From Candidatus Woesearchaeota archaeon (GTDB taxonomy: Archaea; Nanobdellota; Nanobdellia; Woesearchaeales; JAGVYF01), in contig JAHFLT010000007.1 of the NCBI GenBank assembly GCA_023264635.1, positions 1 to 51,946 of the forward strand: a stretch of 51,946 nt of DNA, in the 5' to 3' direction. The translations under genes were made by a program, and so were the position numbers. Shown here in pieces: positions 4,079 to 51,946 of the stretch; within the stretch, counting starts at the first letter, position 1, and each line of letters opens with the position of its first letter. The notes under the pieces were generated by a model. It was not told where the DNA came from, did no database searches, and worked only from the letters and a program-made list of their open reading frames with translations.

Positions 4079-4360
4079 CATTGTTAGGGCTCTGTAGAAA
4101 GTCTCGCTCTCGCTCGCCATTGCACCTCAGCTCGCATGTGCTGTTAGTCTGCAGAGTGACACAAAGGAGAACCGCTGTTCTCCTTGTGCAAGAAGCCTAT
4201 GGCTTCTTTGCATTTCCCGGATGGAGCACAAAGAAATCTCGCAGATTTCTTGTGCAAGTTGCTTCGCAACTTTGCATCCCCTTTGTCACTTTTCCTGACT
4301 CTTGAAGGTGCTCGCCCTTAAGAGTGGCAATAGTACACTTTCTACAGAGCCCATTGTTAG
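4079..4360. mobile_element. 264-bp MITE-like element with 15-bp inverted repeats and a 9-bp target duplication
   Basis: The element occupies 4088-4351. It begins GGCTCTGTAGAAAGT and ends with the exact reverse complement. It is flanked by the direct repeat CATTGTTAG (4079-4087 and 4352-4360), a clean target-site duplication. It encodes no protein. The interior is a chain of short perfect hairpins (such as AGAAATCTCGCAGATTTCT and AAGTTGCTTCGCAACTT) joined by GTGCA/TGCAC linkers. The core is shared, inverted, with elements at 15850 and 17244, but the terminal repeats differ. A 9-bp duplication fits mobilisation by an IS1- or IS256-like transposase, which is inference. Confidence 0.8.
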
Positions 4361-4664: not shown

Positions 4665-4960
4665 CTAATCAAACAGTTCTTGTCCCTCGTTCTTTTTCTT
4701 TATTGAAATTCATTCTCGTTAGAAATTTTGCCACAGCGCGACATTGAGAAGGAAGGAACAACAGGAATTCTAATTTTGTTCTCTCAATGGAATACCTCCA
4801 TACCATTTTTGGTACAACGACTTTTTGTACCTGTGCAATAATTATGGTTCAGCACAAAGCGTTTTCTTGGACAATAAGTATATATATCATATCCACGTAG
4901 GATAATAATTTACGAGTAAATATAAAATATATAAAAAAAGGATAAAAAAAGGTGAATGCA
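4665..4960. other. Non-coding stretch upstream of the FEN-like gene
   Basis: No gene is seen. It holds a stem-loop around 4742-4789 (CATTGAGA ... TCTCAATG, with GAACAA/TTGTTC inside), a GGTACAA/TTGTACC dyad at about 4810-4831, and a 22-bp sequence at 4821-4842 that recurs exactly at the end of the window. The last 50 bases are the AT-rich promoter of the next gene, with a TATA-like AAATATAAAATATATAAA near 4919-4936. Confidence 0.6.
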
Positions 4961-15849: not shown

Positions 15850-16053
15850 CTCCATCCCAAAAAGTACTCAGCAGCTTTAGGTCGAGCCTTAGCAGTAGCC
15901 CATTTTGCACTGACAAAGGGACGACATCTAGGAAATGCAAAGAAGCCATAAGTTTCTTGCACAAGGAAAACAGCGATTCTCCTTTGTGTCAGCTATCATC
16001 TAAAAATGCAAAGGCGAGAAGCTGCTGAGCCAAGCGAGAATTTTTGGATGGAG
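15850..16053. mobile_element. MITE-like modular hairpin element, copy A
   Basis: A 204-bp element bounded by CTCCATCC(C)AAAAA on the left and its complement TTTTTGGATGGAG on the right. The interior is homologous along its length to the copy at 17244-17455: the GTCGAGCCTTAGC segment, TAGCCCATTTTG, TGACAAAGGG, and the hairpin with TTCTCCTTTGTGTCAGC. It encodes no protein and I see no target duplication. The core is also shared, inverted, with the element at 4088-4351. Confidence 0.75.
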
Positions 16054-17243: not shown

Positions 17244-17455
17244 CTCCATCCAAAAAAGCGTTAGCAGCCTAAGGTCGAGCCTTAGCCTTAGCCCATTTTG
17301 TGCTGACAAAGGGGAAGCTCCCTACGGGAAATGTAAAGAAGTCATAGGATTCTTGCACAAGGAGAACAGCGGTTCTCCTTTGTGTCAGCTATCATCTAAA
17401 AATGCAAAGGTGAGAAGCTGCCGAGTTGAGCGAGAGCGAAAATTTTTGGATGGAG
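17244..17455. mobile_element. MITE-like modular hairpin element, copy B
   Basis: A 212-bp element with 13-bp perfect terminal inverted repeats (CTCCATCCAAAAA / TTTTTGGATGGAG), in the same orientation as copy A. Internal hairpins include AGAACAGCGGTTCT, and TGACAAAGG faces CCTTTGTGTCA as an outer dyad. It is non-coding. The copy at 15850 has small deletions relative to this one. Confidence 0.75.
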
Positions 17456-27941: not shown

Positions 27942-28466
27942 ATGAAAATAAAATTAATGAAAATGAAAACTCCCTCTGATTCCAAAACAGTAATTTCTCA
28001 AGTAATGGTGCAAAGAAATGCACAGAGCATTTCTTGCACAAGAAGCTATAGCTTCTTTGTGCAAAATGATGCAAATCATTATGGCACTATCCATGGCGGC
28101 GTTATCTTAAAGCTCATCGACAATGCCGCATGGGTCTGCACAGTGCGTCATGCTGAGCAAATGTGCGTCACCGCATCTATCGACAGGATTGACTTCTGTT
28201 TACCTATTAAAGTAGGTGAACTTGTTACTTTAGAGGCAATTATTGTTTACGTAGGAAAAACCTCCATAGACATCATAGTTACGACGACATCCGAAGATTT
28301 ACAGAAGTGTCAAGTACGTCACACAAACACAAGTTATGTGACGATGGTGGCCGTAACAAAGCAGGGAAAACCAACGTTCGTGCCACGAATGCGTTTCGTG
28401 ACTCTTGAAGAAAAACGTCTTTGTGAGGAAGCAGCGCATCGACGGAAAAAAAGGACAATCATATAA
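27942..28466 (+). CDS. Hot-dog acyl-CoA thioesterase with an in-frame hairpin insertion
   Basis: A 174-aa protein of the YciA/BACH-type hot-dog family, which hydrolyses acyl-CoA. The catalytic segment NDANHYGTIHGGVILKLIDNAA is intact and followed by TASIDRIDF. Just before it the protein reads VISQVMVQ, then 17 extra residues (RNAQSISCTRSYSFFVQ), then NDANHYG. The extra 51 bp (28014-28064) are bounded by GTGCAA repeats and made of two hairpins. Removing them restores the normal family sequence. The frame is kept, so a product with a small surface insert is likely. Several ATGs lie near the start; 27942 is the first. Confidence 0.85.
   Translation: MKIKLMKMKTPSDSKTVISQVMVQRNAQSISCTRSYSFFVQNDANHYGTIHGGVILKLIDNAAWVCTVRHAEQMCVTASIDRIDFCLPIKVGELVTLEAIIVYVGKTSIDIIVTTTSEDLQKCQVRHTNTSYVTMVAVTKQGKPTFVPRMRFVTLEEKRLCEEAAHRRKKRTII
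28014..28064. repeat. 51-bp modular hairpin unit inside the thioesterase gene
   Basis: Two perfect palindromes, AGAAATGC-acaga-GCATTTCT (28014-28034) and AAGAAGCTATAGCTTCTT (28040-28057), with the word GTGCAA immediately before and at the end (28008-28013 and 28059-28064). The same modules and GTGCA linkers build the cores of the MITE-like elements at 4088, 15850 and 17244. The length is a multiple of three and no stop codon occurs in the frame used. Confidence 0.75.
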
Positions 28467-51924: not shown

Positions 51925-51946
51925 CTTTTTGTACCTGTGCAATAAT
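51925..51946. repeat. 22-bp repeat shared with 4821-4842
   Basis: The last 22 bases of the window (CTTTTTGTACCTGTG and on) are identical to 4821-4842 and may extend past the edge. In both places it lies beside mobile-element debris. It may be a fragment of an IS end or a preferred insertion target. Confidence 0.6.

Follow-up and report, generated by a model that had tools for sequence, protein, structure and literature searches.

An acyl-CoA thioesterase gene of a tiny-celled archaeon of the Woesearchaeota order contains a precise insertion of 51 bp made of two adjacent hairpins, which is read in frame as 17 residues and which belongs to a repeat family of the same genome. The best explanation, with a probability of about 0.8, is that a stand-alone micro-repeat, defined by its structure, was copied into the gene. 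The insertion is known from a single assembled genome. All the positions given below refer to the window, i.e., the whole stretch of 51,946 nucleotides that was analysed (Table 1).

Table 1. Position of the thioesterase gene, of the parts of its insert and of the related elements in the window.
Feature	Position	Strand	Basis
Acyl-CoA thioesterase gene, hot-dog fold (4HBT, YciA/ACOT7-like)	27942-28466	+	ORF, Pfam, PDB, model
Double-hairpin insert, 51 bp, reads RNAQSISCTRSYSFFVQ	28014-28064	+	absent from 14 homologues; covariance-model match
Hairpin 1, TGCAAAGAAATGC-acaga-GCATTTCTTGCA	28009-28038	+	sequence, DNA fold, RNA fold
Hairpin 2, CACAAGAAGC-tata-GCTTCTTTGTG	28037-28061	+	sequence, DNA fold, RNA fold
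Constant junction CTTGCACAAG between hairpins, family signature	28033-28042	+	48 genome copies vs. 4 reversed
Left GTGCAA of direct repeat	28008-28013	+	sequence
Right GTGCAA of direct repeat	28059-28064	+	sequence
MITE family A, doublets 4159-4213 and 4226-4277, TIR GGGCTCTGTAGAAAGT	4087-4352	-	sequence, covariance model
MITE family B, doublet 15935-15989, TIR CTCCATCC(A)AAAA	15850-16053	+	repeat search, covariance model
MITE family B, doublet 17331-17385, empty site GGGGAAGC then TCCC at 17318/17319	17244-17455	+	sequence, covariance model

The thioesterase ORF encodes 174 residues and its frame stays open across the inserted block. The product matches 4HBT in Pfam (E = 7e-18) and acyl-CoA hydrolases in the PDB (E down to 9.7e-31). 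Its AlphaFold model (mean pLDDT 86.6) retains the hot-dog fold and strand beta-1, the best structural match being the acyl-CoA hydrolase 1vpm (TM 0.82, on query). The insert is localized three residues ahead of the catalytic Asn. The spacing N45-D60-T77 is the same as that of Asn28/Asp43/Thr60, i.e., the mutated residues of S. aureus 5egj, 5egk and 5hz4; the catalytic Asn, Asp and Thr thus appear to be retained. The 17-residue insert is predicted to be a disordered loop, with pLDDT < 50 for insert residues 27-38.

Fourteen distinct homologue loci were obtained by a scan of GTDB species genomes (G058, i.e., L051, and G329, i.e., L050, included). They belong to Woesearchaeota, a Nanoarchaeota MAG, Thermoplasmata, Omnitrophota, Methylocapsa and actinobacteria. 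All 14 are devoid of exactly 17 residues at the same site, with no other gaps nearby, and since these homologues come from wide archaeal and bacterial taxa the absence of the segment is taken as ancestral. The thioesterase reads ISQVM-VQ[17]NDANHYG, vs. ISQVM-MPTDANNQG or TSKLM-MPNDANFAG in the homologues; in this notation, the two residues past the hyphen could sit on either side of the insert. The DNA of six relatives reads ATG ATG CCN AAT/ACN GAY at the site, hence ATGCC in 6/6, and an insertion behind that GC yields the observed thioesterase sequence within two substitutions.

The sequence-only reading had described a 51-bp block of two palindromes placed directly before the catalytic segment and bounded by GTGCAA, whose removal restores VISQVMVQ-NDANHYG, and had proposed that a repeat was captured there as 17 amino acids without breaking the frame. 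The observation is confirmed and its interpretation as an insertion is supported: the position 28014-28064 holds, the sequence without the block aligns gap-free with the homologues, the comparison with relatives that it had suggested finds the 17 residues in none of them, and the contrary case that it had envisaged, i.e., distant orthologues with the segment, is not seen among the 14. The bounds stand in part. Two GTGCAA copies are indeed found with a spacing of 51 bp (...GTAATG GTGCAA AGAAATGCACAGAGCATTTCTTGCACAAGAAGCTATAGCTTCTTT GTGCAA AATGATGC...), but they need not be a target-site duplication: the module itself opens with (G)TGCAAAG and closes with CTTTGTGC, so that the repeat is mostly element sequence.

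The 51 bp are free of stop codons. Both hairpins are near-perfect and have the junction TTGCACAAG in common. The variable stems of this copy contain no mismatch, which suggests that the insertion is fairly recent or that the structure has been maintained. The DNA fold of the region has an energy of -18.2 kcal/mol, vs. -9.2 +/- 1.8 kcal/mol for shuffles (z = -5.1). The hairpins begin 67 nt past the start codon and are stable in the predicted RNA fold. No terminal inverted repeats flank this copy.

The block represents a module that can be written CAAAG-stem-CTTGYRCAAG-stem-CTTTG. In the 1.316-Mb genome the full pattern, CAAAG-N-CTTGYRCAAG-N-CTTTG, has 48 matches per strand vs. 0 for the reversed pattern (it is self-complementary and the same 48 matches are thus found on each strand), and the 10-mer CTTGCACAAG occurs 48 times vs. 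4 for the reversed 10-mer, both counts being well above chance. Looser patterns give 55 and 63 matches, some of which overlap, and 0 in the controls. A covariance model trained on ten varied copies gives 137 genome matches at E <= 0.1, both strands counted. The top three are the three stand-alone copies, all in the training set; one of them, the thioesterase copy, is matched at 28008-28062 with 67.7 bits. Across the family the junctions are constant, the stems vary and their complementarity is preserved: for 16 varied doublets from eight genomes, the arms pair with their own partners at 143/160 positions vs. 76.7 +/- 6.6 with shuffled partners (0/10000 shuffles). The shared parts are structure and junctions only, and a repeat listing across the window thus omits the thioesterase copy. 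An exact search with the stem AGAAGCTATAGCTTCT matches the thioesterase locus alone without mismatch. A near-identical donor of this copy could not be found; even the best-matching doublets elsewhere have other stem sequences, and the closest one, in a genome of another family, is identical at 44/49 positions, gaps apart. With gathering scores, Rfam gives one tRNA only for the whole window, and the doublet matches no curated family.

Tip inversions between copies (CATAG/CTATG, L014 vs. the others) suggest that the hairpins do form in the cell. The tips inverted in a flip-flop-like manner (GCCTATGGC vs. GCCATAGGC) are those of L014:1549-1597 with reference to the other family-A copies, and those of L021. 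A parallel subfamily of double hairpins has another junction, CCAAAG-stem-CTTGGACCAAG-stem-CTTTGG, and is found at L141, L143-L148, L150, L155 and L157 (G000 C42, C44, C14, C29, C12, C3, C24, C31). The unit length is divisible by three in 7/9 varied doublets and most frames are stop-free, these being too few independent cases for a rule.

The majority of the doublets sit within intergenic MITE-like elements with at least four unrelated terminal inverted repeats, i.e., GGGCTCTGTAGAAAGT (two doublets each), CTCCATCCAAAAA, GGCGCCATTGAAAAG and GTATGTGGAAAGYATC, present on the carriers A, B, C and L037. The claim that the block is built from the modules of such elements is therefore correct, the same module being found at 4159-4277, 15935-15989 and 17331-17385. 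MITE family A, whose members measure about 266 bp and hold two doublets spaced 66 bp, has more than a dozen nearly identical genome copies and is thus considered as recently active; contigs C17 and C32 start within such copies. The copy of the window is bordered by ATTGTTA direct repeats (4080-4086 and 4353-4359). The same-genus genome holds further MITE-like carriers of doublets. The long ORFs that run across the MITE copies L083, L149 and L154 appear spurious. An exact 22-bp repeat, CTTTTTGTACCTGTGCAATAAT, is also present in the window at 4821-4842 and 51925-51946, the second copy being the very end of the contig.

Three doublets have no terminal inverted repeats: the thioesterase copy, where the inserted unit is the hairpin doublet alone and not a whole MITE, L081, immediately past a tRNA gene, and L047, which follows a RelA/SpoT-like gene. 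At the L081 site the same-genus genome is compact and doublet-free, the tRNA and the next gene being almost adjacent. The genome-wide search for the module, suggested from the sequence alone, thus revealed a repeat family of dozens of copies, and no second conserved gene of the genome interrupted by it among the module matches inspected. This points to a single capture event and not to a Rickettsia-style series, and the capture may be the accident of one site. At L142:1489-1547 a module runs across the 3' end of a 222-aa ORF, whose stop and few final codons seem to come from it. Matches to CTTGCACAAG or CTTGCGCAAG in or near genes at L008, L025, L040, L045, L095 and L096 have no hairpins and were attributed to chance; the weak covariance-model match L153 (E 0.047), which lies in a UDP-sugar gene, is normal coding sequence.

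The strict module pattern is found in 9/288 genomes of the order. Clean double stems are present in the source genome, its same-genus relative, G388, G455, G359 and G542, and partly in G030; the matches of G543 have no clean stems and were rejected. Several related families of the order thus have the same architecture with other stems. Among the inspected copies from other genera, none lies across an ORF of at least 100 aa. It must be noticed that L099 and L104 (G388, another family) are intergenic rows of several different hairpins beside a doublet.

MITE family B offers a second comparison of filled and empty sites. Six copies read GGGGAAGC[AAAG...CTTTGCGC]TCCC-TACGGGAAATG with small variations, i.e., a doublet of 59 bp follows GAAGC in them, where the copy at 17244-17455 has GGGGAAGCTCCC. 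The latter copy is the exact empty site and reads GGGGAAGCTCCCTACGGGAAATG; four more copies are also without the second doublet. Within MITE B this doublet is thus either complete or missing altogether. The filled site shows only GC, the unit being directly 3' of GC (AAGC|TCCC). In the thioesterase gene the unit would lie at ATGC|C of the ancestral codons, provided that two substitutions took place later. From these two sites, we infer an insertion 3' of a GC dinucleotide.

The moved unit would have the form GC|AAAG-stem1-CTTGYRCAAG-stem2-CTTTGYGC, and its target in the thioesterase gene would be at or beside the ATG-CCN codon pair ahead of the catalytic loop. Past strand beta-1 and ahead of the catalytic Asn, the 17 residues would bulge out into a flexible loop, N45, D60 and T77 staying in place, and the protein would thus tolerate the insert. 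The doublet would normally spread within MITEs mobilised in trans; it could also be copied or excised alone, most simply via a single-stranded or cruciform hairpin intermediate in replication or repair. The best fit is either a hairpin-mediated copying while DNA is replicated or repaired, or a movement in trans by some enzyme. A wider hypothesis, i.e., a mobile family defined by its shape, recognised by its junctions, with stems rewritten yet complementary, moving by itself at GC sites of Woesearchaeota-order archaea through a single-strand or RNA-based mechanism and occasionally adding peptides, is considered as unlikely.

The alternative that deserves the most attention, although somewhat unlikely, is that the doublet is only the interior of a MITE and not mobile by itself, a whole MITE having been inserted and then decayed, or its core having been moved by recombination or gene conversion. 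Most doublets are indeed within TIR-bounded elements, and one family-A copy has 7-bp direct repeats at its ends. Nevertheless, the thioesterase gene contains no trace of MITE termini and differs from its homologues by exactly 51 bp; in MITE B it is the doublet alone that comes or goes, and doublets are solitary at L047 and L081. It is quite improbable that the insertion has freshly inactivated the gene, translation starting downstream or never. The position so close to the catalytic Asn, stable hairpins near the start codon that could slow ribosomes, and the fact that a genome search did not find the gene in the sole same-genus genome would agree with a broken gene; against this, the 174-codon frame is intact, the catalytic residues appear to be retained, the residues upstream of the insert still match the homologues and the predicted fold has a high confidence.

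Removal of the 51 bases from the mRNA, as an archaeal intron of the bulge-helix-bulge type giving a protein without the insert, is very improbable: the length is a multiple of three, direct repeats lie at the bounds and the ends of the block are able to pair (TGCAAAG/CTTTGTGC), but the predicted RNA fold consists of two hairpins with no bulge-helix-bulge at the boundaries, intergenic copies of the module, for which splicing is unneeded, are common, and a block read in frame requires no removal. No more credible is a repeat copy mis-joined into the contig during assembly. Contigs C17 and C32 do start inside the repeat; yet a mis-join is expected to bring an identical copy, whereas the stem combination found here is unique in the genome, and the block joins in one frame two flanks that are exactly homologous. 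As for a lineage-specific coding indel that would be palindromic by coincidence, indels ahead of the catalytic loop are conceivable, but all the family constants (CAAAG, CTTGCACAAG, CTTTG) and two complementary stems are present and the reversed-pattern control is 0 in the genome; the chance of this explanation, already contradicted, is negligible.

The inserted doublet recalls several known systems. Rickettsia palindromic elements (RPEs) are palindromic repeats of about 100-150 bp, in several families, found between genes and, with insertions in many unrelated genes, in frame within conserved genes whose frame is preserved (PMC10969869). The comparison with them, made from the sequence alone, is valid for an in-frame palindromic repeat in a conserved ORF that is also intergenic, but not for its extent: the doublet has 51 bp, two hairpins and variable stems, and is known from one gene and one capture in an archaeal host. 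The double-hairpin elements of Allomyces mtDNA and related repetitive hairpin elements are, as far as the account of Paquin et al. 2000 in PMC2800124 goes, tiny units of two hairpins side by side, which closely related organisms may have or lack and for which no enzyme is known; an RNA-mediated movement was suggested there since flanking duplications are missing. A mobile or polymorphic unit of two adjacent hairpins is common to both, but the elements of that account belong to fungal and sponge organelles and the doublet to MITEs of an archaeal chromosome, so that the likeness is an analogy and not a membership. The doublet may work like RPEs and these Allomyces elements, to which it is likened by architecture and description. 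As with prokaryotic MITEs, most doublets ride in short non-coding TIR-bearing elements; unlike them, the thioesterase copy is TIR-free and the doublet is common to MITEs with unrelated TIRs. REPINs are mainly extragenic and their REP sequence is conserved (PMC3116915). The doublet resembles REP/REPIN by its short paired palindromes, and Y1 transposases exist in the source genome, but its stems are not conserved; a RAYT-type link was rejected, no doublets being found in the flanks of the three Y1 genes of the genome. No precedent of an archaeal in-frame palindromic element was found in the literature searched, mostly open-access.

To our knowledge, Rickettsia is the main case for which selfish palindromes turned into protein sequence have been discussed. 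The thioesterase gene provides a clean archaeal case of this change from palindrome to protein, with an exact comparison with uninterrupted homologues. Together with the other pair of filled and empty sites in this genome, this comparison makes both the rule for the target and the unit that moves testable. The repeat family has a conserved structure and conserved junctions, its stems are not conserved, and it is found on unrelated MITEs and in several families of the order. Such a conservation of shape over sequence raises the question of what recognises the doublet.
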